A DNA stretch of 64,000 bases from Mesotoga infera (lineage in GTDB: Bacteria; Thermotogota; Thermotogae; Petrotogales; Kosmotogaceae), in NCBI RefSeq assembly GCF_900157305.1, contig NZ_LS974202.1:1922001-1986000 (forward strand), in the 5' to 3' direction. Positions 1,358 through 60,110 of the stretch are shown one piece after another. The position numbers and the translations under genes were made by a program. The first letter of the stretch is position 1. Every line of letters starts with the position of its first letter. The notes beneath the pieces are model-generated. The model did not search any database and was not told the DNA's origin. It saw nothing but the letters and a program-made list of their open reading frames with translations.

Positions 1358-1362
1358 GTGAT

Positions 1363-3635: not shown

Positions 3636-3663
3636 GGAGGCAAACCAAATCGGAGGTGTTTAC

Positions 3664-4449: not shown

Positions 4450-4470
4450 AGCACTGACAGGGATAAAAAA

Positions 4471-4496
4471 CGGCAACCTCAAAGGTTGCCGTTTTT
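4471..4496. terminator. Bidirectional intrinsic terminator between rpsB and 4499 gene
   Basis: A perfect 9-bp stem, CGGCAACCT (4471-4479) and AGGTTGCCG (4483-4491), has a 3-base loop. It is followed by TTTTT on the plus strand and preceded by AAAAAA, which reads as T's on the minus strand. It can end both rpsB and the convergent thiol-redox gene. Confidence 0.92.
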
Positions 4497-4498
4497 AT

Positions 4499-41905: not shown

Positions 41906-42056
41906 GAGGTATGAGAGAAGGGGTAAGAGGTAAGAAAAGCAAGACCTTTCTGCTCTTCCAACCTCTCACCTCTCACCTCTAGCCTCAGGTTCCCCAAGGA
42001 CGGATTCACGCTCCCCAGGGACGTCTCTTAATGATCTTTCAACTGGAGGAAAATGA
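41906..42056 (+). repeat. Intergenic sequence with inverted AGAGGT/ACCTCT repeats
   Basis: The miaB-tmcAL gap starts with AGAGGTATGAGAG and GTAAGAGGT-like units, and about 50 bases on has the complementary series ACCTCTCACCTCTCACCTCT (41961-41980). It could fold into a long imperfect hairpin. It may be a small mobile or REP-like element. Confidence 0.45.
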
Positions 42057-43340
42057 ATGAAGGTTCTCGGTCTCGTGGTTGAGTACAATCCATTTCATAA
42101 TGGCCATCTCTTTCACCTCCGGCAATCGAAGGAGCTGGTGAAACCGGATTATACCGTTGCGATCATGAGCGGTAACTTCGTTCAGCGCGGCGAACCGGCG
42201 GTTATCGAGAAGTTTTCCCGTGCAAGGGTGGCGTTAAAACTGGGAGTGGATCTAGTTCTGGAATTGCCAGTGGTTTACGCGCTTCAAGATGCCGGCGGTT
42301 TTGCGACCGGTTCGATTCGCTCTCTTGACCACGCCGGCGTGACCGATGTGGTATTTGGTAGCGAGACCGGAGATCTCTCTCTCATGAGCGAAGTCTCGAA
42401 AATCCTGATAGAAGAACCCGACGAGTACCGCAGAAGTTTGCGCTTTCATCTGAAGGAAGGCCACTCTTTTCCGAATGCCCGTAAATACGCAATCAGGGAT
42501 TTTATTGGCAGAAGAGACAGCGACCTGTCTTTCAGGATAGAGGAGATAGGCTCTTCAAATAATATTCTTGGAGTCGAGTACATAAGAGCGATGAAGGAGA
42601 TAGGGAGTAAGATAAGACCCCACGCGATAAAAAGGACGGGCGCCGCCTATACTGACGAGAACCACAAAGGCGAATTCTCTTCGGCGACGGCAATTAGAAG
42701 GCTTCTTTCAAAAGGCGACCTAGAATCGGTGAAGGAGGCAGTTCCACAGGAGTCGTTTGACGCGATACTTGGCGAGATAAGGACCGGTAAGGGTCCCGTC
42801 TTTCGTGAGGATACGGAGAGCTTCTTCATACCATACCTGCGGCTTTTATCGCGAAGCGATTATGGGCGATACTACGGTTTCGTGGAAGGTCTTGATGCCA
42901 GATTCAGAGAGTGTTCTATGAGTTCCGACATGACGGCCTTCACCAACTGTGTCAAGACTAAAAGGTTCACGCTTTCAAGGATCAGGAGGTTGATGTATTA
43001 TCCGGCCTTCGGATTCACCGGAGATTTGATCGAAAAGAGCAACGATCTTGGACCGCAGTACCTACGTGTTCTTGCTTTCAACGAAAAGGGAAGAGAGTAC
43101 CTGTCAAGCGTAAAAAAGATGGTGAGCATTCCCATTATCACGACGGCATCGCTGTGGAGAAAAGTGGTGGATCAGGCGCTCAAGAGGAAAATGGAAATAG
43201 ATGTGAAGCTACTAGAAGAACAGCTGGAGAGAGATTTTAAGGCCAGTGATTTTTACTCCTCTCTGTACAGGTCTCCGGAATGGCGCTCGAGAGGTTCCGA
43301 GATGCTTTCGCAGGTTATATACGAGAAGGGTCACTTCTGA
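42057..43340 (+). CDS. tmcAL: tRNA(Met) cytidine acetate ligase TmcAL
   Basis: A 427-residue protein of the TmcAL family (older name YlbM/DUF795), which activates acetate with ATP and acetylates C34 of elongator tRNA-Met. It belongs to the nucleotidyltransferase superfamily. The N-terminus VVEYNPFHNGHLFHL has the HxGH motif, and MSGNFVQRGEPAVIEKFSRA is highly conserved. The ATG at 42057 follows GGAGGAAAATGA. Its stop overlaps the priA start by one base, so these are coupled. Together with miaB upstream it makes a small tRNA-modification neighbourhood. Confidence 0.93.
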   Translation: MKVLGLVVEYNPFHNGHLFHLRQSKELVKPDYTVAIMSGNFVQRGEPAVIEKFSRARVALKLGVDLVLELPVVYALQDAGGFATGSIRSLDHAGVTDVVFGSETGDLSLMSEVSKILIEEPDEYRRSLRFHLKEGHSFPNARKYAIRDFIGRRDSDLSFRIEEIGSSNNILGVEYIRAMKEIGSKIRPHAIKRTGAAYTDENHKGEFSSATAIRRLLSKGDLESVKEAVPQESFDAILGEIRTGKGPVFREDTESFFIPYLRLLSRSDYGRYYGFVEGLDARFRECSMSSDMTAFTNCVKTKRFTLSRIRRLMYYPAFGFTGDLIEKSNDLGPQYLRVLAFNEKGREYLSSVKKMVSIPIITTASLWRKVVDQALKRKMEIDVKLLEEQLERDFKASDFYSSLYRSPEWRSRGSEMLSQVIYEKGHF

Positions 43341-45619
43341 TGTTAGTTCAAGTTGCGATATCCAATTCTCCCCTCTTCGAGACCTATACATACAACAGCG
43401 ATTTACCCCTCTCGCCTGGGGAAAGGGTGGAGGTCAACTTCGCCGGCAGGAACACTATAGGTTACGTCGTTTCTCTTGAAGAGAAGAAAGGGCCTTATAA
43501 AATAAAGAACATCACGAAGAAGATAGATCTCGAACCATTTCTGGGTGTATCCGATCTGGAGCTTGCCATGTACACCTCGAAAGAGTTCGTTGCGCCACCG
43601 GGAAAGGTCTTCGACCTCTTCTTCCCGCCGGGAAAACTGCTTCAGGTAAGTGATTACGTGGTGGCCATATCCGGTGATGTCGGTCTCGAATTGCCGATGA
43701 GCAAAGACAGCTTCCTGAAAAAGTTTGGAAGCGAAAAACTCCGGGAGCTTCTGGGGTCAAGAGACGTGAAGATAATGCACAGTTTCGATCGAAAGGTCTC
43801 GGGCAAGCGGAGGATCAAAAAAGTCTCTTTGAACAGAAGGTTGATAGATCTGCGCGAAGAGCTCAATCCAGTCTGGCAGTCGATAGTCGATTATCTTCTT
43901 TCCGTCAGTTCTGAAGAGATCTCCGTTCTCGAGAAAAAACTCGGACTGAACAGTCGCAGCCCGATCGAGACGCTCGTCAGAAAGGGAGTTCTCTCGGTGG
44001 AGGAGGTAGAGGAAGACGACTCTCAATGGGTTATCCCATCGGTAATCGATCTCACTCAAGATCAGAAAAAGGTCTCCAGAGCACTGCTCAATAAGAAAAA
44101 CGGGGTATCGCTTCTTTACGGCCTTACCGGTACGGGAAAGACCGAGGTGTACTTCAATATCATGGAATACTGGCTGAACAGGGGAAAGCAGGTTCTCTTA
44201 ATGGTTCCGGAAGTCTCGCTGACCCCTCAGCTTCTGGCGCGTGTCAGGGGCGCTTTCCCAGGCAGAGTCATCAGGCAGTACCACAGTTACATGACTGCCG
44301 GACAGAGGCAGAGGATTTGGCTCGACGCCACCGAAGGAAATGTGGACATACTGGTCGGGACAAGGAGTTCGCTGTGGGTTCCCATGAAAAAAACCGGCCT
44401 GATAATAATCGACGAAGAACACGACGCCAGTTTTTATCAGCAGAGCGTGCCTTTTTACGATGGTGTAGAAGTGGCGATGAAGAAAGGGAAGTTACTCGAT
44501 ATCCCGGTTATTCTAGGTTCGGCGACGCCCAGAGTTACACACTTCTACGCTGCGAGCACTGGCAGAATGGATCTTTTGGAGCTCCGCAACAGACCGGTTG
44601 GAAGCTTCCCTGCGATCGAGATCATCGATATGAAAGAAGAGAAAAATCCTATCATAAGCGCAAGGGCGCTCAAAGAGATAGAATATACCCTTTCGCAGGG
44701 CAAACAGGTCTTCGTTTTCGTTCACAGAAAAGGATTCTCCAATTACGTGGTCTGCCATGCATGCGGTCAAACCGTCACCTGTCCTCATTGTTCCGTCTCT
44801 CTGACTTATCACAAGATAGACAATGCCCTGAAGTGTCACTACTGCGGATACAGACAACACGTGCCGAGATCCTGTCCGTCCTGTGGATCAATGACGCTTT
44901 CGGCGCGGGGGTTCGGCACGGAGAGGGTAGAAAACGATCTTCAAAAGTTCTTTCCGTCAGCCAGCATAATGCGCATGGATCGCGAAACCATCGATAATCC
45001 ATTCGCCTACGAAAAGGCGCTGCAGGAGATCTCTAAAAAAAAGAGCCAGATAATAGTGGGAACTAAAATGATCACGAAAGGGCTCGATTTTCCCGACGTA
45101 GAGATGGTTCTGGTGATCGATGCCGACCGCCTTATGAGCTTTCCCAGCTACGACAGTCCTGAAACCGCCTTTCAGTACATAGCACAGGTCAGCGGTCGCT
45201 CCGGTAGGGCCGGTAAGGGAAGGGCCTTCATTCAGAGTTTCAATCCCGGCAACAGGGTTATAAGCAAAGCCTTCGAGAGGGATTACGACAGTTTCTTCCA
45301 ACAGGAGCTGGATCTCAGGAAAGAACTTCGCTATCCGCCTTTCGTAAAGATCGTGGAGATCGTATGCATCGGAGATTCCGAAGAAGAAAGCCTTGATCTT
45401 GGTAAAAAAGTAGTGGCCGAGCTGGAAAAATCGAAAGACGCCTATCTTGAACTCTTCGGCCCCATAGTCCCGCTTCTCTCGAAGATCAAGAGTTCTTATA
45501 GGACGAAGATCGTCCTGAAACTGGAAAACGATAGTCCGCTAGATTTCCTTCAACCCGTGATAAAAAAGCATTCCACCGGACTCCAGACAATAGTGAATGG
45601 AATCGGCGGAATGCTTTGA
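43340..45619 (+). CDS. priA: Primosomal protein N' (replication restart helicase PriA)
   Basis: A 759-residue superfamily-2 helicase that reloads the replisome at stalled forks. The start is ATG 43340, overlapping the tmcAL stop as TGATG; a longer in-frame reading lies within tmcAL and is rejected. Motifs: Walker A LTGTGKTEVYF (about 262), DEEH box IIDEEHD (about 357), the zinc-binding cysteines from CHACGQTVTCPHC to CPSCG (about 471-517) and helicase motif VSGRSGRAGKG. The N-terminal DNA-binding domain is present. Length is normal for PriA. Confidence 0.95.
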   Translation: MLVQVAISNSPLFETYTYNSDLPLSPGERVEVNFAGRNTIGYVVSLEEKKGPYKIKNITKKIDLEPFLGVSDLELAMYTSKEFVAPPGKVFDLFFPPGKLLQVSDYVVAISGDVGLELPMSKDSFLKKFGSEKLRELLGSRDVKIMHSFDRKVSGKRRIKKVSLNRRLIDLREELNPVWQSIVDYLLSVSSEEISVLEKKLGLNSRSPIETLVRKGVLSVEEVEEDDSQWVIPSVIDLTQDQKKVSRALLNKKNGVSLLYGLTGTGKTEVYFNIMEYWLNRGKQVLLMVPEVSLTPQLLARVRGAFPGRVIRQYHSYMTAGQRQRIWLDATEGNVDILVGTRSSLWVPMKKTGLIIIDEEHDASFYQQSVPFYDGVEVAMKKGKLLDIPVILGSATPRVTHFYAASTGRMDLLELRNRPVGSFPAIEIIDMKEEKNPIISARALKEIEYTLSQGKQVFVFVHRKGFSNYVVCHACGQTVTCPHCSVSLTYHKIDNALKCHYCGYRQHVPRSCPSCGSMTLSARGFGTERVENDLQKFFPSASIMRMDRETIDNPFAYEKALQEISKKKSQIIVGTKMITKGLDFPDVEMVLVIDADRLMSFPSYDSPETAFQYIAQVSGRSGRAGKGRAFIQSFNPGNRVISKAFERDYDSFFQQELDLRKELRYPPFVKIVEIVCIGDSEEESLDLGKKVVAELEKSKDAYLELFGPIVPLLSKIKSSYRTKIVLKLENDSPLDFLQPVIKKHSTGLQTIVNGIGGML

Positions 45620-45645
45620 AAGATCTATTCTATCGTACCGGTTTA

Positions 45646-46839
45646 CTACCTTTTCAGCTGTCCAGGGAAGAAGCAAGAGACGAAATGCCCACCTCCAACA
45701 TCCTGCAACTGGGGTTCCTCTCTGGAACAGACTTCTTTGGCTATTGGACAGCGTGGATGGAACCTGCAACCGGAAGGCGGATTGATCGGACTGGGAACGT
45801 CGCCCTGGAGTATGATCCTTTGCTTTTTCTTCTCCGGATTGGCCTCTGGAATGGCCGACATCAGCGAGACGGTATAAGGATGGAGAGGATCGTCAAAGAG
45901 TTTTTTCTTGTCGGAAAGTTCGGCGACCTTTCCCAGGTACATTACGGCCACCCTCTTGCTGATATGTTTCACAACGCCCAGATCGTGAGCGATGAAGAGA
46001 TAGGTCAGGCCGAATTCTTTCTGAAGATCGTTCAGCAAATTGAGAATCTGGGCCTGAATAGAGACGTCAAGGGCCGAGACGGCCTCGTCGCAGACTATGA
46101 GTTTTGGATTGAGAATCAAAGCCCTGGCGACTCCTATACGCTGTCTCTGCCCTCCGCTGAATTCGTGTGGGAATCTGGACATATGATCCTTTGATAGACC
46201 GACTTTTGTCATAATATCGGCAACTTTATCTAGAACGTCGCTCCCGGTGGCCAACCCGTGGATCCTGGCTCCCTCTCCGATGATGTTCTTGATCCGCATT
46301 CTGGGATTAAGGGAAGAAAAAGGGTCCTGGAAGATGATCTGGGCGTTTCTTCTGAAAGCCTTTCTCTTCTCTTCACGGTTCGAAAGCATGCTTCTCATGA
46401 AGGCGTTCCGGTCTTCGTTGAACTCCTTGAAGTATCTTTCGGCTATCTTTCTATCGAAATCGTTTTGAAACGACTGAATTGCGGCTTCGGACGATCCGCC
46501 CTTGCCTTTCAACTCGACGAATCGGTCGATGTATGTGTCTCTTATATATTTTTTGGCCTTCAGCGTGGGCATGAAATAGTAGGTAGTGTCTTCCCCTTCC
46601 ATGATTATTCTGCCTGAAGTCGGCTCATAAAGCCTCAAAACCGACATACCGGCCGTAGTCTTGCCGCAACCGGATTCTCCAACGAGTCCTAGAGTCTCTT
46701 TCTCGTACACGTCGAAACTGATATTGTCAACGGCTTTGACTTGGGCAACTACCCTTCTGAAAACGCCGGCCCTTACCGGGAAGTGTTTCACCAGCCGATC
46801 GGCCCTTAAAAGTAGTTTGCTATCGGGTATTTTGCTCAT
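45646..46839 (-). CDS. oppF: Oligopeptide-type ABC transporter ATP-binding protein (OppF-like)
   Basis: A 397-residue ATPase, last gene of the transporter operon. Walker A GESGCGKTT, Q-loop IIFQDPFSSLNPRM, signature SGGQRQRIGVARAL, Walker B LIVCDEAVSALD, and the C-terminal oligopeptide/dipeptide domain with a cysteine motif (GCRFHPRCPIAKEVC) are present. About 70 extra residues sit between the Walker A region and the Q-loop (for example YIDRFVELKGKGG), compared with the usual short link. The ATG overlaps the stop of oppD by 4 bases. Substrate cannot be set from the ATPase; oligosaccharides are possible, since some Thermotogae 'opp' systems carry sugars. Confidence 0.92.
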   Translation of the reverse strand: MSKIPDSKLLLRADRLVKHFPVRAGVFRRVVAQVKAVDNISFDVYEKETLGLVGESGCGKTTAGMSVLRLYEPTSGRIIMEGEDTTYYFMPTLKAKKYIRDTYIDRFVELKGKGGSSEAAIQSFQNDFDRKIAERYFKEFNEDRNAFMRSMLSNREEKRKAFRRNAQIIFQDPFSSLNPRMRIKNIIGEGARIHGLATGSDVLDKVADIMTKVGLSKDHMSRFPHEFSGGQRQRIGVARALILNPKLIVCDEAVSALDVSIQAQILNLLNDLQKEFGLTYLFIAHDLGVVKHISKRVAVMYLGKVAELSDKKKLFDDPLHPYTVSLMSAIPEANPEKKKQRIILQGDVPSPINPPSGCRFHPRCPIAKEVCSREEPQLQDVGGGHFVSCFFPGQLKR

Positions 46840-47852
46840 GCCCCCTCACCTGCCCTCGATACTTTGATCATTTCGACGAGTTTATCCACGTACCAGCAGG
46901 CCGATGTGTGATTCTCATCTACCTCTACCAGGGGTGGCTCTTCTTTTCTGCATTTGTCGGTCGCCAGTGGACATCTGGTGTTGAACCTGCATCCATCCGG
47001 GAAATCCAGAGGATCGGGGACGACACCGGGTATGTTGTAGAGAACCTCTCTATCCTCGTCGAGTTTGGGAATCGCGTTCATTAAACCCCAGGTGTAGGGA
47101 TGCCTTGGTTTCTTGAAGAGCGTGTGGACTTCGGCGTATTCCACCACTTTTCCGGCGTACATCACTACAACTCTCTGGGCCATCTCCGCTATCACTCCAA
47201 GATCATGCGTGATCATCACCAAAGCCATGCCATACTGTTCTTGAAGCGACTTCATTAGTTCGAGGATCTGTGCCTGAATGGTCACATCCAGAGCTGTGGT
47301 GGGCTCATCCGCGAACAGGAGTTTCGGATTACAGGAAAGCGCCATGGCTATCATGGCTCTCTGTCTCATTCCTCCGGAAAGTTCGTGAGGGTATTCGTCA
47401 ACCCTTTTCTCCGGTTCGGGAATACCGACTTTGCGTAGCATATCTATCGCCATTTTTCTGGCCTGTTCCTTGTTGACATCCTGGTGAAGGAGAATAGCCT
47501 CCATTATCTGAAAGCCAATCGTGAAGACCGGGTTGAGAGCAGTCATGGGTTCTTGGAAGATCATGGCCATGTCGTTCCCCCTTATCTTCATCATCTGCGA
47601 CTCTGGAATGGCCATTACGTTTTTGCCTTCGAAAATGATCTCCCCACCGGCGATTTCGCCCTTTTCGTCAAGAAGCCTCATTACCGAAAGGGAAGTCACA
47701 CTCTTTCCGCAACCGGATTCACCGACTATCCCGAGCGTCTCGCCTGCGTAAACATCGAAAGTCACACCGTCCACCGCTTTTACTATCCCGTCTTCTGTAT
47801 GAAAATAGGTTCTTAGATCTTTCACCTGTAAAAGTGCGTTTTTGCTATCCAC
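46836..47852 (-). CDS. oppD: Oligopeptide-type ABC transporter ATP-binding protein (OppD-like)
   Basis: A 338-residue ATPase with GESGCGKSVTSLS, FQEPMTALNPVF, LSGGMRQRAMIAMAL and LLFADEPTTALD, and the family's C-terminal cysteine stretch (GCRFNTRCPLATDKC). It pairs with OppF in the membrane complex. GTG 47852 follows GAGGAGGATTTTGAC and is the best start. Spacing to oppC upstream is 13 bases and it overlaps oppF downstream, so it is translated as part of the operon. Confidence 0.94.
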   Translation of the reverse strand: MDSKNALLQVKDLRTYFHTEDGIVKAVDGVTFDVYAGETLGIVGESGCGKSVTSLSVMRLLDEKGEIAGGEIIFEGKNVMAIPESQMMKIRGNDMAMIFQEPMTALNPVFTIGFQIMEAILLHQDVNKEQARKMAIDMLRKVGIPEPEKRVDEYPHELSGGMRQRAMIAMALSCNPKLLFADEPTTALDVTIQAQILELMKSLQEQYGMALVMITHDLGVIAEMAQRVVVMYAGKVVEYAEVHTLFKKPRHPYTWGLMNAIPKLDEDREVLYNIPGVVPDPLDFPDGCRFNTRCPLATDKCRKEEPPLVEVDENHTSACWYVDKLVEMIKVSRAGEGA

Positions 47853-47865
47853 GTCAAAATCCTCC

Positions 47866-48747
47866 TCAGCTTCTCATTCTCGGGTCGAAGATGTCTCTGA
47901 GGGCATCACCCACGAGGTTCCAGGCGAGAACGAAAAGGACCATTGCTGTACCCGGGAAAACTATTGCGAACCAGGACTCGTTGAGCATGGTCATCCAGTT
48001 ACGCGAGTAAGAGAGTATAGTTCCCCAATCGGCGTATCCCGGTTCGGCGCCAACTCCGAGGAAGCTCAATCCCGCCGCGGTTATTACATATGATCCTATT
48101 CTCATTGACATCTGTACTACAACCGGGAAGATAGTGTTCGGAAGAATATGCTTCATGATAATCTTCCAGTCCTTCTGTCCCAGTGCTTTTGCGGCCAGGA
48201 CGTACTGCTCTTCCCTTGCCTGGAGTATGTTTCCTCTAATCAGCCTGGCGGTGCTCATCCAGCCGAATATGATTAGGGCTATTATCACTTTGTCCAGCCC
48301 TTTTCCGAGAATGGTGGTCATCACCATCGCCGCGACAAGGAAGGGGATCGAAAGGAAGATATCAACTATTCTCATCAGTATTTCATCGACCCACCCTCCG
48401 AAATACGCGGAGATAGATCCGATCGCAACACCGATCAATGCAGAGAAACCGGTTATGATTAAACCCAGCCTGAAGGCCGTTCTGGTTCCCCAGACCACGC
48501 CATAGAAGATGTCCCTTCCACCAATCACGCCGAACGGATGTTCAGAAGTTGGCGCTATGGGTTTTGAAGACCACGAAACTCTCGGGATCTGATAATTGTT
48601 TCCCATCTCGTTGACGCCGGCTATCTGAGGAGCAAAGACCGCGACGATTATGAAGAAGATCAAGAGACAGGTACCCAGGACTGCGGTACCGTTTTTCCAG
48701 TACTTCTTCATTATCTTCCGAAATTCGCTTTTTCTTTTGACTGCCAT
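47866..48747 (-). CDS. oppC: Oligopeptide-type ABC transporter permease (OppC-like)
   Basis: A 293-residue inner-membrane permease with about six transmembrane segments. The coupling loop that contacts the ATPase is QYVLAAKALGQKDWKIIMKH. The N-terminal cytoplasmic stretch before the first membrane helix is typical of OppC/DppC. Conserved C-terminal GYADWGTILS and LGVGAEPG regions are present. It lies 13 bases after oppB and 13 bases before oppD. Confidence 0.93.
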   Translation of the reverse strand: MAVKRKSEFRKIMKKYWKNGTAVLGTCLLIFFIIVAVFAPQIAGVNEMGNNYQIPRVSWSSKPIAPTSEHPFGVIGGRDIFYGVVWGTRTAFRLGLIITGFSALIGVAIGSISAYFGGWVDEILMRIVDIFLSIPFLVAAMVMTTILGKGLDKVIIALIIFGWMSTARLIRGNILQAREEQYVLAAKALGQKDWKIIMKHILPNTIFPVVVQMSMRIGSYVITAAGLSFLGVGAEPGYADWGTILSYSRNWMTMLNESWFAIVFPGTAMVLFVLAWNLVGDALRDIFDPRMRS

Positions 48748-48760
48748 CTACTTTGCCTCC

Positions 48761-49795
48761 TCACTCAAGCCTTATTCGCGGGTCAACGAGAGCGTATGAC
48801 ACATCAACTACCAGATTGCCTACCACCATAATGAAGGAGAAGAAAAGCGCTCCGCCGATTATCGACCAGTAGTCCAGAAGGGTCGCTGCGTCGGCCAGAA
48901 ACCTTCCCATGCCGACCCTGCTGAAGATAGTTTCAACAAAGACGGTTCCACCAAGCAATCCGATGACTGAGCCACCTGCAACGGTGAGAACGGGAATCAT
49001 CGCGTTCTTTTTGGCATGTTTCTGGATTACAATATTCTCCGGCACACCCTTTGCCCTAGCGGTTCTTATGTAATCTTTCCTGAGAACTTCGAGCATGCTT
49101 GAACGCGTTATTCTGAGGAGGTAAGCCCACCAGAGGTAAGCCAGGGTCATAACCGGTAGAATCAGATGTCTCAGTGCATCCACAAAGATATCCAACCTTC
49201 CATTCAGCAAGGCATCTATCGTTGGCATGGAAGTTATTTTATTCCACTCAGCACTGCGCATTATAAGGTCGAACTGTGTATTGACCATTCCGGGTGGGAA
49301 CCAGCCCAGCAACGAATAGAATACCAGGAGCAACAAAAGACCGAAGACGAAGTCTGGCAGCGACCACCCTACTAGAGCGAACACTCTTATAAATTGGTCT
49401 ATGAATTTATTCTGATGAACCGCCGAAACAACCCCAAGCCATATCGCCACCAGAATAACTGGAATTATCGCGTATATGGTTAGTTCTAGAGTATAAGGAA
49501 AACGTTCTAGCATGGCCGGTAGTACCCCCTTCTTTCCCACCATCGAGTACCCGAAATCACCCTGGAGAATGTTTCCCAGCCATTTTAGGTACTGTACCGG
49601 CATAGGTTCATCCAATCCGTATTTTTTGATCAATCTTTCCGCTGCATCTGGGGTTTTGAGAGCTTCGGGGCTTTTTATATATGAAGCCAGAAGTCTGTCC
49701 GGTCCGAGGGCCCAGATCATCGAAAAAATAATTAAAGTAACGCCGATCAGTATGAGCGGCATCAAAAGAAGCCTTCTGATTATGTAAGCTGTCAC
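48761..49795 (-). CDS. oppB: Oligopeptide-type ABC transporter permease (OppB-like)
   Basis: A 344-residue permease with the characteristic OppB N-terminus (MTAYIIRRLLLMPLILIGVT), a large extracytoplasmic loop and the coupling loop DYIRTARAKGVPENIVIQKH. The start is GTG 49795, preceded by AGGGGTGAT. A terminator stands between it and the binding-protein gene upstream, so it depends on read-through or its own weak promoter. Confidence 0.93.
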   Translation of the reverse strand: MTAYIIRRLLLMPLILIGVTLIIFSMIWALGPDRLLASYIKSPEALKTPDAAERLIKKYGLDEPMPVQYLKWLGNILQGDFGYSMVGKKGVLPAMLERFPYTLELTIYAIIPVILVAIWLGVVSAVHQNKFIDQFIRVFALVGWSLPDFVFGLLLLLVFYSLLGWFPPGMVNTQFDLIMRSAEWNKITSMPTIDALLNGRLDIFVDALRHLILPVMTLAYLWWAYLLRITRSSMLEVLRKDYIRTARAKGVPENIVIQKHAKKNAMIPVLTVAGGSVIGLLGGTVFVETIFSRVGMGRFLADAATLLDYWSIIGGALFFSFIMVVGNLVVDVSYALVDPRIRLE

Positions 49796-49866
49796 CTGAG
49801 TATCACCCCTTTACACAAAATAAACAGATAATAAGACTATTATAGTGCATTTTTTTGATCAAAAAA

Positions 49867-49895
49867 AGAGCCGGGTTAGAAGAACACCCGGCTCT
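49867..49895 (-). terminator. Intrinsic terminator between oppA-like gene and oppB
   Basis: AGAGCCGGGT and ACCCGGCTCT form a 10-bp stem with a 9-base loop, followed on the minus strand by TTTTTTT (49860-49866). Partial termination here would yield more binding protein than permease, a common scheme in ABC operons. Confidence 0.9.
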
Positions 49896-49911
49896 AGCTT
49901 ATCAAGCCTTT

Positions 49912-51758
49912 CTATTCGCTCTTGGAAAGGTGGTAGTAGTAGTAACCGGATCTTGCGGTTTGCGGATACCAGCCATCTACCTTAGGAGATTCAACATGGA
50001 GTCCCACAGGCATGTATAGAGGAACACCGAGAGCATATTCTATGGCCTTCTCCTGAACGGATCTGTAAAGCTTCACTCTTTCTGCAGGATCGGTCGCCTT
50101 TATAGCGGCAATGATTTCATCGTCAACGTTCTCTTTTGCCCAATCTCTGAACAGCTTTCCCTGTCTTCCTGCATAGGTTCCAAAGCTAGCGTAGTAAGTG
50201 GATATGAAGTTGTGTGGGTCCGGATAGTCGGCTACCCAGCCTATTATGAACATCGGAAGGAATCCGTTGTTCTGTGCCGAGAGGTACGTCGGCCACTGAA
50301 CACCGAGCGGCTCAACCTTGAATTTCGGGTTGATAGAACTCACGAAGTAGGAGAGCATTTCGGCGATAGTCTGTCTTGAATTGTTACCGGTGTTGTAAAG
50401 TATCTGGAGTTTGAAACCCTTGTTCCAGACTTCTCCACCCCAGGCCTGCTTGAATTCGGCAGCCGCCTTGGCCAGGTTGAATTCGGGCAGCGGCAGGGTT
50501 TCGTCGAAGCCGAGGTAACCTTCTGGAAGATCTGTCGGGACGAGCTTACCGAGACCATTTATAACTTCATCGATGAATGTGATGCCATCGTAGCAGTAAG
50601 CGAAAGCCTTTCTAACATGGATATCGGAGAAGAATTCTCTGGGGATGCCATTTCCATCGAGCTTTCCACTTCCAAGATATTCACTACCTTCTGCGATGAG
50701 CCAGTTGAAGTGGAGAGAGGTTATAGAGGAAACTGGATAACCGGTCGTAACTTCTGCCTTACCCTGTGCCTGCAGCGCAAGAGCCTGATCGAGATAGACC
50801 GGATCAAAGTAAGCGATATCGGCATCGCCTGCTTCGAATATGGACTTTCTAGTCGAAAATTCATCAACACCCCAAATTACGATGTTCTTTATGGCCGCTG
50901 GACCTGCCCAGTAATCGTCGAATCTCTCGAGAACGACCTTCTGCTGTGCCCTGTCCCACTCTACCAGCTTATATGGTCCGGAACCGCCATCGAAGTCGTG
51001 GAACGCGTATTCATCAGCTTCCAGGTCGTGCCACTTCCACCAACCGTCTGCCTTTCCATCCCAGTCACCGCGTTCCATGGCAAGCTTGGAATCGACTATC
51101 GCTCCCCAGGAACCGAAATGACACACTATGTTCAGGAAGGCACCGAAAGGCCCGTCGAGAGTGAAGACGACAGTGTTGTCAACCACTTCGATTCTCGGAT
51201 CAATGACCTCTTCGTAGAAGGAGATAAGCTTGGCTTTAGCTTCCTCGGAGGTTGGGTTTCTGTCTGCGTTCACCGCATCGGAATATGCCATTCCCGCATA
51301 ATCGGCAAACCAGTCTTCGACAGTGTAGAAGGCCGAGCTTGTCAGAGCTTCGATTATCCATCCCCAGTGTGCCTTGCCGGCGGGATCGCCAAGTATGTAC
51401 CTCTCGAAGGAGTACTCTACATCTGCCGGGGTAAGTATGTTCCCACTGTGGAACTTGACGCCCTCTCTTATGGGGAATATGTACTTCAGAGCGCCATCTT
51501 CTTCAACCACAAGACCGTTATCGAAGCTCGGAACTTCCGTGGAAATCATGGGCAGGAATTCCGAAACTGACTGCCCTTTGTACTGAATCAGATTATCGTA
51601 GAGGTTTCTATGACCTCTCCACTGGCAGTATCGTAGGAGTGCATTCCATCGAGTGTCTCCGGCTCACCGATGGTCAAATTCACAAGCGTGTTTGGGTCAC
51701 TTGCAAACGCAAAGAGCGATACTAACAGAGCAAGTGTTACCAGTAGAATTTTCTTCAC
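49912..51758 (-). pseudogene. oppA: Oligopeptide-type substrate-binding protein, frameshifted
   Basis: A solute-binding protein gene of the OppA family (SBP_bac_5). The true start is GTG 51758 after AAAGGGGG. It opens with a signal sequence (VKKILLVTLALLVSLFAFAS) and the mature start DPNTLVNLTIGEPETLDG. At 51605-51607 a run of three T's (three A's on the coding strand) replaces the four needed. The reading runs into a stop after GEVIETSTII, while the +1 frame continues seamlessly as NLYDNLIQYKGQSVSEFLP and on through the remaining 545 codons. One added base restores a 615-residue protein. So this is either a recent mutation or a sequencing error. The downstream part is otherwise intact. Confidence 0.88.
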
Positions 51759-51801
51759 TAGTGTTGCCCCCTTTCAAATAGAGATGAGTGTGTGCAGAAC
51801 A

Positions 51802-51830
51802 ATTATAATCTATCGAGCTTCGAAATTCAA
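51802..51830 (-). promoter_or_regulatory. Promoter of the transporter operon
   Basis: On the minus strand TTGAAT (51825-51830), a 17-base spacer and TATAAT (51802-51807) make a near-consensus sigma-70-type promoter, 44 bases before the GTG of the binding-protein gene. Confidence 0.8.
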
Positions 51831-51882
51831 AACTGCGTTAACCATTGTGTTGTATTTGGGGTTTTCAAGCCTCATATACGTA

Positions 51883-51912
51883 TTGACAATTGTATGGTTA
51901 CAATGGTAGAAT
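51883..51912 (+). promoter_or_regulatory. Promoter of tRNA-Val
   Basis: TTGACA (51883-51888), an 18-base spacer and TAGAAT (51907-51912), ending 11 bases before the tRNA. Confidence 0.8.
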
Positions 51913-51923
51913 CTCTCCTGTCC

Positions 51924-51998
51924 GGGTGCGTAGCTCAGTGGAAGAGCGCTTCCTTGACGAGGAAGAGGCCGTAGGTTCAATCCCTACCGCACCCACCA
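51924..51998 (+). tRNA. tRNA-Val (anticodon GAC)
   Basis: A 75-base cloverleaf with acceptor pairs GGGTGCG/CGCACCC, D stem GCTC/GAGC, anticodon stem CTTCC/GGAAG around TTGACGA (anticodon GAC), T stem GTAGG/CCTAC with TTCAATC loop, discriminator A and an encoded CCA (51996-51998). Confidence 0.97.
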
Positions 51999-52000
51999 GC

Positions 52001-52028
52001 GGGGAGAGTTTTCTCCCCTATATTTTTT
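52001..52028 (+). terminator. Terminator of tRNA-Val
   Basis: GGGGAGA (52001-52007), GTTT loop, TCTCCCC (52012-52018), then TATATTTTTT. It overlaps the stop codon of the convergent phosphorylase gene, whose strand has no T tract here. Confidence 0.85.
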
Positions 52029-52866
52029 CCAGAGTCTTCAATATCAATTTACTCATGTCTCTTCCGGCCTTTTTTGCCATTTCAAGAACCTCTTCGGCCG
52101 TTATTGGCTTCAGATCGTCGGGTACGGCGCGATCGGATATTGCCGCAAAACCTATAACTTTTATACCGGCGTGGCGGGCCACGATGACCTCGGGAACCGT
52201 CGACATTCCGACGGAATCGGCGCCGAACCTCCTCATCATTCTCAGCTCGGCTGGAGTTTCGAAATTCGGTCCGGCTACACCGATATAAACTCCTTCGTAA
52301 ACACCGATACCGAGCTCTTTAGAAGCGACTTTCGCCTTTTCGAGGAGTTCCAGATCGAAAGGTTCGCTCATATCAGGAAACCTCGGTCCCCATTCATCTA
52401 CGTTTGGTCCTATGAGCGGATTGTCGCCCATGAAATTGATTATGTCGCGGACAAGCATCACCCTTCCCACTTCGAAGTCGGGATTTAATCCTCCTGAAGC
52501 GTTGGTGATAATGAGAACCTCCACACCGAGTTCCTGCATTACGCGGATGGGGAAAGTTATGGTTCTCATGGAGTATCCTTCATAGTAATGAAAACGCCCG
52601 TTCATAAGCATCACTTCGTGGTGAAGTACTCTTCCAAAGGTCAGTTCACCTTTATGACCGGGAGCCGTAGAAACCGGAAAACCCGGCAAATCCTCGTAGG
52701 GTATGGAGATGGAGTTTTCGAGACTTCTGGAGATGTCTCCAAGTCCGCTCCCCAGTATTATGGCGACCTTCGGCTTAGCGGGTACCTCTTTCTGAATGAA
52801 ATGGGCAGCTTTTTTGACGTTTTCCACGTAAGTTTTAAGTTCTTCTTGGAGATCAGAAATACTCAT
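52018..52866 (-). CDS. punA: Purine nucleoside phosphorylase (trimeric class)
   Basis: A 282-residue enzyme that splits purine nucleosides with phosphate to free base and ribose-1-phosphate. Motifs: ILGSGLGD near the N-terminus, PGFPVSTAPGHKG phosphate site, NGRFHYYEGYSM, NASGGLNPDF and GPNFETPAE, all typical of the trimeric PNP/MTAP family. The MSTVPEVIVARH stretch and DSVGMST favour PNP over MTAP. The ATG at 52866 is preceded by GAGGGAGGG. It is transcribed from a promoter overlapping that of proS. Confidence 0.93.
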   Translation of the reverse strand: MSISDLQEELKTYVENVKKAAHFIQKEVPAKPKVAIILGSGLGDISRSLENSISIPYEDLPGFPVSTAPGHKGELTFGRVLHHEVMLMNGRFHYYEGYSMRTITFPIRVMQELGVEVLIITNASGGLNPDFEVGRVMLVRDIINFMGDNPLIGPNVDEWGPRFPDMSEPFDLELLEKAKVASKELGIGVYEGVYIGVAGPNFETPAELRMMRRFGADSVGMSTVPEVIVARHAGIKVIGFAAISDRAVPDDLKPITAEEVLEMAKKAGRDMSKLILKTLEKI

Positions 52867-52895
52867 GCCGGCCCTCCCTCTAAAATCGATATTCT

Positions 52896-52904
52896 ATTAT
52901 AGCA
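52896..52904 (-). promoter_or_regulatory. Extended -10 of the phosphorylase promoter
   Basis: Minus strand TGCTATAAT; the -10 hexamer is 52896-52901, about 30 bases before the ATG at 52866. No good -35. Confidence 0.55.
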
Positions 52905-52910
52905 AAACGA

Positions 52911-52939
52911 CGGACAGCGTGCTGGAACTGTGCTATAAT
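52911..52939 (+). promoter_or_regulatory. Promoter of the proS operon
   Basis: CGGACA (52911-52916), a 17-base spacer and TATAAT (52934-52939) with the extended TGC before it. It is back-to-back with the phosphorylase promoter. Confidence 0.7.
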
Positions 52940-52986
52940 CACACCGAATTAGTCCCATTTAGTTTTTCATTGAGAGGAGAGTTACG

Positions 52987-54735
52987 ATGAGGTTCTCACA
53001 GCTTTACGCTCCGACCCTTAAGGAAGCTCCATCCGATGCAGATCTTGTTAGTATCAAATTATTGATAAGAGGCGGGTTCGTAAGAAAGGTTGCAGCGGGA
53101 GTCTATACATATCTACCGCTTGGCTTTAGGGTCTTGAAAAAGATTGAAGAGATTGTTCGCCAGGAAATGAACGCTATCGGTTCGCAGGAGATATTGATGC
53201 CCATCATACAGCCAGCGGAGCTCTGGCACGAGACGGGACGCTGGGACGACTACGGTCCGGAGATGATGAAGTTGCAGGACCGACACGAGAGGTTCTTCAC
53301 GCTCGGTCCGACTCATGAAGAGATAATCACTCACATTCTCCGCAATGAGCTCAAATCATACAAGCAATTACCGGTTTCTCTCTACCAAATTGCCATGAAA
53401 TACCGGGACGAGATAAGACCCAGATTCGGCCTAATGAGGTCGCGCGAGTTTCTCATGAAGGACGCCTACAGCTTTCACGACAGTTGGGAATCTCTCGATG
53501 AGGCCTACAAAAAATTCTACTCTGCATACAGCAAGATCCTCGAAAGGCTCGGACTGGACTATTTAGTGGTGGAAGCCGATTCTGGAGCTATCGGCGGCAA
53601 CGAATCCCATGAATTCAACGTTCTGGCCAAGTACGGTGAATCCACGCTTCTGTACTGCGATTGCGGTTACGCCGCTTCGGACGAAAAGGCCGAATATCTT
53701 TTCAAACCGATCGTGCAGAATCGTTTGCCTGCGGAGCTGGAGCTGGTTTCTACGCCTCAATCTCGAACTGTTGAAGAAGTGACTGCCTTTCTCGGTGTAA
53801 GTTCCAGGGAAATTATAAAGTCTCTTATATACAGCGGAAGAAACGGGTACGTGATGGTTTTAATCAGAGGAGACGAAGAACTCAACGAATCGAAGTTGAA
53901 AGCATCGATGAACGACCAGACTCTCACGATGGCGACTCCCCAACAGGTTTTCGAGCTTCTTAAAGTTCCTGTCGGCTTTGTAGGACCGGTCGGTCTGCCC
54001 AACGGTATAGAAATCGTGGCCGATCTGTCGATAAAGGGTTTGAAAAACGCAGTGGGTGGAGCTTTGAAAGAAGGATTCCATTATCGTGGTATTTTGCCGG
54101 AACGCGATTTCAAGATCGGGAAATGGCTGGACCTCAAGATGGTGAAGACCGGCGATGCCTGCCCTAAATGCGGAAAATCTCTGAAATCGGCCAAGGGTAT
54201 CGAAGTCGGTCACATATTCAAGCTGGGAACTAAGTATTCGGACAAGATGGAGGGATCGGTCACCGATGCTCAAGGGAATGCAATTTCATATGTGATGGGT
54301 TGTTACGGCTGGGGCGTGTCGAGAACCATAGGGGCGATCGTGGAGCAGTTGCACGATAAAGACGGGATGATCTGGCCTCTGGAGGCCGCGCCTTTCGATA
54401 TCATCGTTACGGCGGTAAACACCAAAGACGAGGAGATAATGAAAAGATCGGTCGAAATATATGAGTTGCTTAAGAAATGGGGTTACGATGTGCTTCTCGA
54501 CGATCGAGAAACCTCACCGGGAATGAAATTCAAAGATGCGGACCTCATAGGAATACCGGTACGTGTAACCCTGGGCAAAAAACTCGCCGAAGGTATAGTA
54601 GAAATCAAGTCCAGGACTGAAGAAAAACCGGTCATGGTGAGCGTTAATGATGGTTACGGTCCGATCGTTGAAGAGGTGGAAAGGCTTTTCGCGAGATACA
54701 ACCCGAAGAGCGTATTGAAACCGGAGGATGAATGA
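52987..54735 (+). CDS. proS: Prolyl-tRNA synthetase
   Basis: A 582-residue bacterial-type ProRS that charges tRNA-Pro. Class II motifs are FTLGPTHEEIIT, YRDEIRPRFGLMRSREFLMKD and YGWGVSRTIGAIVEQ. The insert between motifs 2 and 3 (about residues 225-400) is the editing domain that clears Ala-tRNA-Pro. The anticodon-binding domain is at the C-terminus. Length is normal. The ATG at 52987 follows GAGAGGAGAG. Its stop overlaps the ftsY start. Confidence 0.97.
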   Translation: MRFSQLYAPTLKEAPSDADLVSIKLLIRGGFVRKVAAGVYTYLPLGFRVLKKIEEIVRQEMNAIGSQEILMPIIQPAELWHETGRWDDYGPEMMKLQDRHERFFTLGPTHEEIITHILRNELKSYKQLPVSLYQIAMKYRDEIRPRFGLMRSREFLMKDAYSFHDSWESLDEAYKKFYSAYSKILERLGLDYLVVEADSGAIGGNESHEFNVLAKYGESTLLYCDCGYAASDEKAEYLFKPIVQNRLPAELELVSTPQSRTVEEVTAFLGVSSREIIKSLIYSGRNGYVMVLIRGDEELNESKLKASMNDQTLTMATPQQVFELLKVPVGFVGPVGLPNGIEIVADLSIKGLKNAVGGALKEGFHYRGILPERDFKIGKWLDLKMVKTGDACPKCGKSLKSAKGIEVGHIFKLGTKYSDKMEGSVTDAQGNAISYVMGCYGWGVSRTIGAIVEQLHDKDGMIWPLEAAPFDIIVTAVNTKDEEIMKRSVEIYELLKKWGYDVLLDDRETSPGMKFKDADLIGIPVRVTLGKKLAEGIVEIKSRTEEKPVMVSVNDGYGPIVEEVERLFARYNPKSVLKPEDE

Positions 54736-55646
54736 TGGGAATCTTTTCCAGAATAAAGGAAGGGCTGAAAAAGACCCGAGACGGTTTCTTCAAAAACGTC
54801 AAAAAACTTCTTTCCTTCGACAGGCTAGACGAGAATACGCTCGAAGAGATCGAGGAGTTGCTGATACTCTCCGATATGGGCTCTGAGACTTCTCAAGAGG
54901 TAATATCGGCCCTGAGAGAGAGAACGCATAAAGGCAGAAATCCGACGGAAGTCCTAAAAGACGTGCTTACGGAGATTCTCGATATCCCTTACGAGCAGAA
55001 AACCGGGAAGCCTTATGTCATATCGGTTGTGGGCGTGAACGGAACGGGAAAGACCACCACGATTGGAAAACTGTCGGGACTCTATTCTCAACAGGGAAAG
55101 AGAGTTGTGCTAGCGGCCTGCGATACTTTCAGAGCCGCGGCGGTTGAGCAACTTCGAGTATGGAGCGACAGATCGGGAGTAGATTTCATAAGCCAGGGTC
55201 AGGGCGCTGACTCCGCGGCAGTCGCTTTCGACGCTATAAACCACGCAGTAAGCAAAGGGAAAGACGTTGTTATAATTGATACGGCCGGGAGACTTCATAC
55301 CAAAAGCAACCTGATGGAAGAGTTGAAGAAGGTCCACAGGGTTATCGGGAAAGCGGTTCAGGGAGCTCCACACGAAGTTCTACTTGTAATAGACGCTACG
55401 ACGGGTCAAAACGGTCTTATTCAAGCAGCTAAGTTCAAGGAAGCGGTGAATGTCACGGGTATAGTACTCACGAAACTGGACGGAACGGCAAAGGGTGGCA
55501 TAATATTTGCCATCGTGAAGGAACTGGGAATACCGGTTAAATATATAGGTGTTGGCGAGAAGATAGACGATCTCAAGCCCTTCAAGCCGTCAGAGTTCGT
55601 GGAAGCTCTCCTTTCAAACGATGAGGAGAGTTCTGAGGAGGTATAG
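54732..55646 (+). CDS. ftsY: Signal recognition particle receptor FtsY
   Basis: A 304-residue SRP GTPase that docks SRP-ribosome complexes at the membrane. NG-domain motifs: VGVNGTGKTTTIGKLS (G1), DTFRAAAVEQL, DTAGRLHTK (G3), TKLDGTAKGG (G4) and GVGEKIDDLKPF. The acidic N-terminal A domain is absent, as in other Thermotogae-type short FtsY. Two adjacent ATGs (54732, 54735) fit; the first overlaps the proS stop. It matters for the many exported lipoproteins encoded upstream. Confidence 0.96.
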   Translation: MMGIFSRIKEGLKKTRDGFFKNVKKLLSFDRLDENTLEEIEELLILSDMGSETSQEVISALRERTHKGRNPTEVLKDVLTEILDIPYEQKTGKPYVISVVGVNGTGKTTTIGKLSGLYSQQGKRVVLAACDTFRAAAVEQLRVWSDRSGVDFISQGQGADSAAVAFDAINHAVSKGKDVVIIDTAGRLHTKSNLMEELKKVHRVIGKAVQGAPHEVLLVIDATTGQNGLIQAAKFKEAVNVTGIVLTKLDGTAKGGIIFAIVKELGIPVKYIGVGEKIDDLKPFKPSEFVEALLSNDEESSEEV

Positions 55647-55649
55647 AGT

Positions 55650-56111
55650 ATGGGTTTCACTCTCAAAAGTAGTTATGCACTGAGAGCTCTTTACAAGATG
55701 GCCAGATCGGCACGTAACGGAAAAGATAAAATGTCTCTGGTTGAGATTGTGAGCGACAACGAGATTCCGAGAGACTTTCTCGAAAAGATTTTTGGAGAAC
55801 TCAGGCAAGCGGAGATAATTAAAGCTGTCAGGGGCAGGTACGGTGGTTATTCCCTTGCGAAACCGGCGGACAAGATATTGATCAGGGATATAATCTTGAA
55901 ACTAGATAGGCCCATGAACTCCTACGTATGCCTTCAGAAGGATGGAAAATGTGTCGAGGATCCGGACTGTACGGTTAAATACGTCTGGTTCAGGTTATAT
56001 AACGCCATGATGCGTGAGATCGGTTCAATGACGCTTGAAGATCTCCTTAAATACGGAGACAGGATACTGAACAACCCGCCGGACAAGCTCGAGATCGAGG
56101 AACATATCTAG
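55650..56111 (+). CDS. Rrf2-family transcriptional regulator
   Basis: A 153-residue Rrf2-type regulator: a winged helix at the N-terminus (MGFTLKSSYALRALYKMA, then GRYGGYSLAKPADKI) and three cysteines near residues 94, 101 and 107 (VCLQKDGKCVEDPDC). In IscR and related regulators such cysteines bind a [2Fe-2S] or [4Fe-4S] cluster that senses iron-sulfur or redox state. No isc or suf gene is adjacent; it lies in the proS-ftsY run, 3 bases after ftsY, so its targets are unknown. Confidence 0.88.
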   Translation: MGFTLKSSYALRALYKMARSARNGKDKMSLVEIVSDNEIPRDFLEKIFGELRQAEIIKAVRGRYGGYSLAKPADKILIRDIILKLDRPMNSYVCLQKDGKCVEDPDCTVKYVWFRLYNAMMREIGSMTLEDLLKYGDRILNNPPDKLEIEEHI

Positions 56112-56174
56112 TGATTTTTTAAAAGGAGGATGACGCTTTGCCCTTGAAGAGAAGTGGGCGAAGCGCTGATTTTC

Positions 56175-56651
56175 ATGAAGGCTGTATATCCTGGTTCTTT
56201 TGATCCAATAACTTATGGACACATCGATCTGATCGAGAGGTCGAGCAAGATCTTTGATGAAGTGATTGTGTTGGTGATGGAAAACTTCAACAAGAAACAT
56301 TTTTTTGCACACGAGGAAAGAATGCGGATGGTCAGACTCGCGGTTTCTCACATACATAACGTGACCATTACCACTCACAGCGGTCTTCTAGTAGACTTTG
56401 CCAGAGATAACGATGTAAATGTTGTGATTCGAGGACTCAGAGCGGTCTCGGACTTCGAGATGGAACTTCAAATGGCCCATGCAAACAAGTCAATGTTGTC
56501 TGATCTCGAGACGTTGTTTCTGATGACGGAGACCTCAAACTCTTTCATCTCTTCGTCGATGGTCAGGGAGATCGCATCTTTCGGCGGTGACATCTCGAAA
56601 TGGGTCCCACCTTGCGTAAAAGATGAGTTCAAAAGAAAACTGGGTAAATGA
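56175..56651 (+). CDS. coaD: Phosphopantetheine adenylyltransferase
   Basis: A 158-residue CoaD, catalysing the fourth step of coenzyme A synthesis. [21 protein letters not shown] has the TxGH site, and [19 protein letters not shown] and [16 protein letters not shown] are conserved. The ATG at 56175 matches the usual N-terminus, although its ribosome binding site is weak. The strong AAAAGGAGG at 56121-56129 instead precedes a 5-codon reading frame (56130-56147, MTLCP). An in-frame GTG at 56154 would add 7 residues. Confidence 0.93.
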
Positions 56652-56688
56652 CTTTACATCTTAGAAAATAAACCGCGTTCAACTGAGT

Positions 56689-56694
56689 TATAAT
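56689..56694 (+). promoter_or_regulatory. -10 box candidate for tsf
   Basis: TATAAT about 37 bases before the tsf ATG. No convincing -35 at the right distance. Confidence 0.35.
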
Positions 56695-56730
56695 CTTCGA
56701 TGGAATTTTAATTAAGGAGGACACACAATA

Positions 56731-57336
56731 ATGGCTGAAATTACCAGTGATATGGTAAAGCAACTCCGCGACGCGACCCAGGCCGGCATGATGGATTGTA
56801 AGAAGGCTCTTGTAGAAACCAATGGCGATTTCGAGCTCGCAAAGGATTACCTTCGTAAGAAGGGGATTCTGAAGGCCGACAAGGTCTCAGGCAGAGAAAC
56901 CGGAGAGGGAATAATATACTCTTACATTCATCACAACAACAAGCTCGGCGTGCTTCTAGAACTGGACTGCGTCACAGATTTCGTCGCGAGAACCGACGAA
57001 TTCAAAGAACTCGCTCACAAAATCTCGCTGCAGCTGGCAGCAATGGGAGCACGGTTTGTCTCCAGAGATCTAGTTCCTCAGGAAAAGATAGAGAAGGAAA
57101 AGGAGATCTACGCCGCACAGGCAAAAGAGAGTGGTAAACCGGCCCACATAATTGAGAAGATAGTAGAAAGCAAGCTCGAAAGCTTCTACAAGGAGAACTG
57201 CCTGCTAGAGCAGGAATACGTTTTCGAGAGCGGCAAAACTATAAATGATCTTATCGTCGAACTGATCTCTAAAACGGGCGAGAACATCAAAGTGAAGAAA
57301 TTCGTTCGCTGGCAGGTAGGCGAATCCGAAAGTTGA
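56731..57336 (+). CDS. tsf: Elongation factor Ts (short form)
   Basis: A 201-residue EF-Ts, the exchange factor that reloads EF-Tu with GTP. The N-terminal UBA-like domain with [20 protein letters not shown] and the core [20 protein letters not shown] are clear. It is about 80 residues shorter than E. coli EF-Ts and resembles the short form of Thermus. The ATG follows AAGGAGG. It is separated from rpsB, its usual neighbour, and is followed by a terminator and pyrH. Confidence 0.96.
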
Positions 57337-57342
57337 GTTTTA

Positions 57343-57368
57343 AAGGTGAGCGGTGCTCACCTTTTTTA
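57343..57368 (+). terminator. Terminator or attenuator between tsf and pyrH
   Basis: AAGGTGAGC (57343-57351) and GCTCACCTT (57355-57363) pair fully around GGT, followed by more T's. It lies 18 bases before the pyrH start. Confidence 0.88.
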
Positions 57369-57385
57369 TATCTCTGGAGGTGGAT

Positions 57386-58087
57386 ATGTATAAAAGAGTT
57401 CTTCTAAAACTCAGCGGGGAAGTTTTGAGTGGCGAAGGCGGAAGGGGATTCGATGAAGCGTCCGTAGATTATCTACTCGAAGAGATTCTTCCGGTAATTC
57501 GTACTGGTACACAGCTGGCGATAGTTATAGGTGCCGGAAACATTGTGAGAGGCAGGGAGCTGAGAAATTTGAGAAATTCGAGGGCCGACGAGCTCGGAAT
57601 GCTCGGAACCGTTATGAACGCGGTTTACCTAAAAGAAGTTCTCAGCGGTGCAGGGGTAAAGGCCGTCGCCGTTTCATCGATCGTCAAGTTGCCTTCTTTA
57701 GACGATCACAAGTACGATCGCATCGAGAAATCGCTGGAAAGCGGAGAGGTCGTTGTATTCGGCGGAGGTACTTATCTCCCTTTTTTCACGACTGACACAG
57801 CGGCCGCCGTCAGAGCGATCGAAATAGGTTCGGACGTTATCATAAAAGGTACTAAAGTCGATGGCGTTTACGATAAAGATCCGAAGAAAAACGACGATGC
57901 TGCAAAGATAGACAGGATAACCTTCGCCAGCGCCATCGAGAATAATATCGAAGTTATGGACCGTGAAGCCTTTTCTATCTGTCAGAGATACGCTGTACCG
58001 GTAATAGTTATAGATTTCTTCAAGAAGGGAAATCTTTTGAATGCTATAATGGGCGAGAAGATAGGCACACTTGTAATTCCCGATTGA
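57386..58087 (+). CDS. pyrH: Uridylate kinase (UMP kinase)
   Basis: A 233-residue bacterial UMP kinase of the amino-acid kinase fold, making UDP from UMP. ATG 57386 is chosen for CTGGAGGTGG just upstream and for the conserved start [47 protein letters not shown] and [13 protein letters not shown] are family motifs. An in-frame start at 57353 lies in the terminator and is rejected. eno follows 13 bases after its stop. Confidence 0.96.
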
Positions 58088-58100
58088 TGGAGGTGATGAA

Positions 58101-59384
58101 ATGTACGCACAGATAGTTGACTTGGTTGCTCGTGAGGTTCTTGATTCGAGGGGAACACCTACGGTTGAGGCCGAAGTCTGGCTGGACGATGGCGGTCATG
58201 GAAGGGCCATAGTACCTTCTGGGGCTTCTACGGGAAAGTTTGAAGCACTGGAACTTCGTGATGGAGATAAGAAGAGATTTCTTGGAAAAGGTACTCTAAA
58301 GGCTGTGGAGAATATAAATGAAGTGATCGCTCCCGAAATTGTCGGTCTGAACGCTTTCGATCAGACCGCGATCGACGATGCCCTGTTGAAGCTTGATGGT
58401 ACCAAAAACAAAGACAAGCTCGGTGCGAACGCGATACTGGCAGTATCGATGGCGGTTGCAAGAGCCGCAGCCGACAGCATAGACACCCCACTCTACAAGT
58501 ATCTTGGAGGAACCAACGCAAAGGTCCTCCCGGTTCCCTTCATGAACATAGTGAACGGCGGAAAACACGCTGACAACAACCTGGATATCCAGGAGTTCAT
58601 GATAGTTCCGGCCGGATTCAAGCATTTCAGAGATGCTTTGAGGGCTGGAGTCGAAGTCTTCCATCACCTTAAAAAACTCCTGAAAGAAGGCGGACACGTT
58701 ACCGCGGTCGGCGACGAGGGCGGTTTCGCTCCCAGTTTCGAGAGCAGCGAAGAAGCAATCAAGTATATAATCAACGCCATAGAGTCGGCCGGCTACAAGC
58801 CCGGTGAAGAGATCTTTATAGCCCTGGACTGTGCGGCCAATGAATTCCTCAACGAAGAGAAGGGTCTGTACACTATAGATGGCAAGGATCTCACTCCCGA
58901 CCAGCTTATAGATTACTACATTGATCTGACCGAGAGATACCCGATAATCTCCATAGAGGATCCCTTCAACGAAGAGGATTGGGAAGCTTTCTCTAGGCTT
59001 TCGGAAAGGGTTGGAGGCAAAGTCCAGATCGTCGGCGACGACCTTTACGTGACTAACATCGAGAGGCTGAGAAAGGGAGTTGAAGAGAGGGCTTCTAACT
59101 CTATTCTAATAAAGCTGAACCAGATCGGTTCGGTCACTGAGACTCTCGATACCATAGAGTACGCCCAGAAGCGCGGTATGACCTGCGTGATCTCCCACAG
59201 ATCCGGCGAAACCGAAGACACATTCATAGCCCATCTCGCCGTGGCTACTAACTCAGGGATGATCAAGACCGGTTCGGCATCAAGAACCGATAGGATCGCC
59301 AAGTACAACGAACTTCTGAGAATAGAAGAAGAACTTGGCGAACAGGCCGAGTTCAGAGGACTTGCTTCTTTCTACAATCTATGA
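58101..59384 (+). CDS. eno: Enolase
   Basis: A 427-residue enolase converting 2-phosphoglycerate to phosphoenolpyruvate. N-terminal [19 protein letters not shown], flexible loop [44 protein letters not shown] and VGDDLYVTN contain the Mg and catalytic residues. [15 protein letters not shown] is the substrate loop. ATG 58101 follows GGAGGTGATGAA. A terminator follows. Confidence 0.97.
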
Positions 59385-59396
59385 GTTTTTTAGGAT

Positions 59397-59425
59397 GCGG
59401 GAATCCTCCGATTCCCGCGCCTTTT
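59397..59425 (+). terminator. Terminator after eno
   Basis: GCGGGAAT (59397-59404) and ATTCCCGC (59411-59418) form an 8-bp stem followed by GCCTTTT. It lies just before the serine dehydratase genes. Confidence 0.8.
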
Positions 59426-59444
59426 GTACGGAGGCAAAAAAGAG

Positions 59445-60110
59445 ATGTTGCTGGATATAATAGGACCGGTTATAGTAGGACCTTCAAGTTCCCATACGGC
59501 CGGCATGGCAAGGCTGGGAAGAGCCTTCAGGTCGCTTTTTAACGGAAAGCCCGATGAAGTAAAATTTCTTCTCAACTCCCCACTTTTTGCAACCCACAGG
59601 GGCCACGGAACGGACAGGGCACTGGTTGGAGGAGTGCTAGGCATGAAAGAATCCGATCCCTCTCTCAAACAGGCTCTGGAGATGGCCGTGCAGAGCGGGA
59701 TGTCTTTCTGTTTCGAGGAGAGCGATATGCCTGAAGCTCACCCGAACACGGTCAAAATAACCGGACAGGACTCCGATAGATTTCTCAGTATCACGGGAGC
59801 TTCCGTTGGCGGTGGAGAAATAAGGATAACCTCGATAGACGATTTCGAAACCAGCGTGAGCGGCAAATATCCCTCGCTTATACTGTTGAATGCCGATGTT
59901 CCCGGTGCTCTAGCTCAGATAGTGCGACTGGTGTCGGCGAGCGACATCAATATAAGCAATCTGTTGCTGTCCAGAGTGGATCCATACAGACGCGAGGCGC
60001 TATGTGTAATTGAGCTAGACGACGAACCTGATCAAGATCTGATTGTGGAGATAAAAAAACTGAAGGTAGTGAGAAGAGTCTCTTACCTTGAGAAGCTGGA
60101 TGTAGTATGA
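59445..60110 (+). CDS. sdaAB: L-serine dehydratase, beta subunit
   Basis: A 221-residue beta subunit of the iron-sulfur L-serine dehydratase. It has the IGPVIVGPSSSHTAGMARLG signature and a C-terminal ACT domain (NADVPGALAQIVRLVSASDI) that may bind serine. ATG 59445 is chosen for GGAGG at 59430-59434; a longer in-frame reading from 59424 would cover that site. The stop overlaps sdaAA, so the subunits are made together. The enzyme turns serine into pyruvate and ammonia. Confidence 0.94.
   Translation: MLLDIIGPVIVGPSSSHTAGMARLGRAFRSLFNGKPDEVKFLLNSPLFATHRGHGTDRALVGGVLGMKESDPSLKQALEMAVQSGMSFCFEESDMPEAHPNTVKITGQDSDRFLSITGASVGGGEIRITSIDDFETSVSGKYPSLILLNADVPGALAQIVRLVSASDINISNLLLSRVDPYRREALCVIELDDEPDQDLIVEIKKLKVVRRVSYLEKLDVV

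Follow-up and report, generated by a model that had tools for sequence, protein, structure and literature searches.

A one-base frame change in the binding-protein gene of an ABC-importer operon of Mesotoga infera

An importer operon with a divided binding-protein gene

The window analysed here, a stretch of 64,000 nucleotides of Mesotoga infera DNA, carries on its minus strand a five-gene ABC-importer operon composed of a binding protein (SBP), two permeases and two oligo_HPY ATPases. The SBP gene is followed by a permease with BPD_transp_1 and BPD_transp_1_N domains (48761–49795), a second permease with BPD_transp_1 and OppC_N (47866–48747) and two ATPases, both showing ABC_tran with oligo_HPY (46836–47852 and 45646–46839). 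All four genes were found intact and under constraint.

The SBP gene, by contrast with its relatives, is split between two frames. Its N-terminal piece (51609–51758, minus strand) starts at GTG 51758 behind a strong Shine-Dalgarno signal (duplex of −14.7 kcal/mol) and comprises codons 1–50, which by our reading would provide a putative export signal, KKILLVTLALLVSLFAFA. After codon 50 this frame meets three A's (51607–51605 on the minus strand, TTT on the plus strand) and terminates at a TGA after 56 residues in total. The remainder of the gene (49912–51606, minus strand), 564 codons and a stop with the SBP_bac_5 domain, lies in a shifted frame that is open from 51606 to 49915 and has its stop codon at 49912. 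Since the other two frames of the same strand contain 24 and 27 stops across this stretch, a 564-codon open frame cannot be due to chance. The original prediction had placed a one-base frameshift at the T run 51605–51607, downstream of an intact signal part and 50 intact codons, and had expected 615 residues if a fourth T were present. Its coordinates were right, the frame from GTG 51758 was indeed open to codon 50, and the length agreed with the arithmetic of the coordinates. In the deposited sequence, the putative export signal and the binding domain are in separate frames, and the gene yields a peptide of 56 residues instead of a binding protein that could be exported. A 317-codon open frame runs antisense to the gene on the plus strand (50617–51570) and is probably a shadow ORF.

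The downstream piece matched Pfam PF00496 (SBP_bac_5) with 196.3 bits against a cut-off of 32.4. None of the NCBIfam equivalogs for Opp, Dpp and Nik proteins reached its cut-off (the best gave 61 bits against 393), and no substrate was therefore assigned. Relatives of solved structure were distant only, with a best E value of 7.3e-18. With the family-5 binding proteins of Opp/Dpp/Nik-type importers the locus shares the SBP_bac_5 domain and the company of two permeases and two oligo_HPY ATPases, but here the signal part lies in a different frame from the domain and no equivalog cut-off is reached. At an E value of 1e-60, 55 of the 61 genomes searched, the own genome counted, yielded a match. 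The own genome contains 14 further SBP_bac_5 matches.

The order priA, two ATPases, two permeases, SBP, PNP, proS was whole at six of seven loci, which come from seven of the nine other genomes of the genus; the seventh locus stops at a contig end. Among the five more distant loci that were looked at, none retained it in full. Upstream of the SBP gene, a promoter-like TTGAAT-17-TATAAT (51802–51830, minus strand) was recognised by consensus match only. It shares the intergenic stretch 51759–52017 with a tRNA-Val gene, which was present in nine of ten related loci scanned. This stretch and the one on the other flank of the SBP gene (49796–49911) are 97.7% and 97.4% identical to the nearest relative, UBA1373, and exceed in this the 15 compared genes (89.0–94.2%).

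The gene in related genomes

UBA1373 (L010, G003:C74, 23,685 bases) was aligned to positions 41559–60537 of the window and showed 91.3% DNA identity over 19 kb. At the frame-change site the window reads TTT and UBA1373 reads TTTT, so that the comparison with the orthologue, proposed at the outset as a check, returned the one additional base. This was the sole frame-changing indel inside a gene across the aligned 19 kb. Other indels within the 15 listed genes summed per gene to multiples of three or were situated upstream of likely starts. The latter applied to coaD, pyrH and sdaAB, whose likely true starts are our own reading. Towards one end of the alignment, four gaps at 41906–42015 fell between the ORFs 40595–41905 and 42057–43340; at the other end no gaps were found within 60107–60537 of the window. 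Beyond the alignment, positions 1–5599 were 87–92% identical to G003 (91% complete), and positions 5600–40000 gave only pieces at 66–78% identity and one of 58 bases at 90%, which possibly marks a variable or acquired region.

The SBP gene bears the marks of strong purifying selection. Against UBA1373, dN/dS was 0.058 for the downstream piece, within the range of eight other genes compared in the same way (0.005–0.094), and the first 50 codons were free of nonsynonymous changes. No second lesion was detected in the 564 downstream codons. When changes were polarised on five outgroups of the same genus, which was possible for 42 of about 140 differences, this branch had 8 nonsynonymous and 14 synonymous changes and the sister branch 6 and 14. 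A simple likelihood put the unconstrained share of the polarised branch at 0.02–0.03, with an upper bound of about 0.29–0.39 that varies with the transition weight. Selection of this strength implies that the lesion is either recent or an artefact.

In all 29 loci counted from other genomes (L027–L055, identity of the downstream piece 48–95%), a single open frame devoid of stops covers both pieces. The frame check as a whole spanned 55 loci (L010–L064), many of which represent the same place fetched twice. Within the genus, both pieces were matched in eight of nine other genomes, in G007 at 59% identity only; neither piece was matched in G008, which is 78% complete. Several apparent breaks were rejected as independent lesions. 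The short N-terminal frames of G029 (two) and of contig C38 of G055 reach contig ends, the match in G036 starts at base 9 of its contig, and in L025 (UBA9910) a stretch of N mimics a break. Two loci lacked an adjacent N-terminal match: L018 has 76 bases before the match and L026 is distant (about 31%). Eight more distant family-5 matches (in G040, G052, G055, G057 and G059) contain one stop inside the match and may run past the end of the gene. Among the genomes examined, the frame change is, as judged from their sequences, seen in this one only.

Error, mutation and less probable origins

To judge the soundness of the assembly, 342 ORFs of G001 were compared with a 400-kb sample of the chromosome; 163 of them had a good relative there (54,762 amino acids). 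The survey is blind near gene ends and for the 179 of 342 ORFs that had no good relative in the sample. Two of the 163 genes were flagged, the SBP gene and ORF 148 of G001, the latter being an over-extended ORF start and no frameshift. Since the SBP gene had been picked for being frame-shifted, the useful figure is that of the other 162 genes, among which, five stop-bearing rows aside, no other frame change was shown. The assembly is hence not generally error-ridden. Inner stops occurred in 19 rows of G000 matches. In 14 of these no stop lay beyond query residue 33, which looks like the result of over-extended starts; the remaining five had stops at residue 358 of 362, 69 of 305, 164, 178 and 201 of 205, 144 of 149 and 56 of 111, three of them in matches at about 53% identity. 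In the reverse comparison, G001 showed two apparent frame changes and 16 rows with stops.

Very probably, one base was lost very recently from a short A/T run close to the 5′ end of the SBP gene, be it in the DNA itself or in its assembled sequence, and the frame change is not programmed. We found no evidence against a one-base frameshift, and most likely it is an ordinary one that calls for no new mechanism. The four-A run would have originated in the ancestor shared with G003, and one A would have been lost later. The original prediction had left the choice between error and mutation open. This choice could be narrowed to a recent event in a single genome among those examined, with programming set aside. 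Error and young mutation are about equally likely.

The first of the two holds that the cell's gene is intact and that the deposited sequence lacks one base through a residual sequencing or assembly error, for which we see an even chance. The A would then have been lost in base calling or consensus building. A conserved gene, matched in nearly all genomes of the genus, strongly constrained and otherwise perfectly preserved, argues for such an artefact. PMC3711429 expects a frame transition that occurs in a single genome and has BLASTp validation to be a sequencing error and not a genuine indel, an expectation that concerns genomes available by 2013. The SBP gene resembles the single-genome frameshift genes described there in its occurrence in one genome, in its support by relatives and in a downstream piece without Shine-Dalgarno signal, and no feature that would distinguish it from them was found. 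The run is short, however, with only four bases in UBA1373, and the 162 genes just mentioned speak against error as well. So do the runs of at least four bases in UBA1373: out of 156 that were aligned identically or gapped, only three are gapped on the window's side; apart from the run in the SBP gene, these are found outside genes or ahead of a likely start. A single residual error is nevertheless compatible with an assembly that is not generally poor. Literature searches on the sequencing method of this genome gave nothing usable; the text found in PMC7074868 concerns Mesotoga infera genes, not sequencing.

A true loss-of-function mutation in the sequenced strain, recent and perhaps fixed in culture, has a chance somewhat below even. 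The A would have been lost through strand slippage, and the importer would be left without its receptor. The scarcity of further frame changes in that part of the assembly which was sampled is in line with this, and uptake needs could be met by the 14 further SBP_bac_5 proteins predicted in the genome. This branch has no clear surplus of amino-acid changes over its sister, and the operon is conserved at a conserved place; both speak against such a mutation. Given this conservation the mutation, if true, must be very young.

Programmed or phase-variable frameshifting, in which ribosome or polymerase slips and full-length protein is made from some of the mRNAs, is very improbable although a short A run sits exactly at the junction. 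By our reading, the zero frame at this site contains no slippery heptamer of the form X XXY YYZ. The four-A run, formed by the codon pair GAA-AAC, occurs at the site in UBA1373 alone; the other 28 of the 29 loci lack the run and all are in frame, so no conserved slippery site backs programming. Slippage during transcription usually needs more than three A's, which we likewise counted against it. Equally slight is the chance that the run, newly arisen in this species pair, serves as an on/off slippage switch for uptake that was caught in its off state.

It is just as doubtful that the 545-residue frame from ATG 51549 (51547–51549, minus strand) represents a real, functional protein without signal sequence: a mechanical caller lists this ORF, but the ATG has no Shine-Dalgarno signal (−3.5 kcal/mol, against a median of −4.1 for random 20-mers) and relatives hold the N-terminal piece and the stretch from 51549 in the same frame.

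Possible consequences for the strain

If the one-base loss is real, ribosomes starting at GTG 51758 would halt after 56 residues, no binding protein would be exported, and intact permeases and ATPases would be left without a receptor. As had been anticipated for an annotation starting at 51549, the export signal would be missing: automatic calling would give a binding protein of 545 residues without it, or else a pseudogene. The bearing of the finding is on the annotation and the nutrient-uptake models of this strain only.
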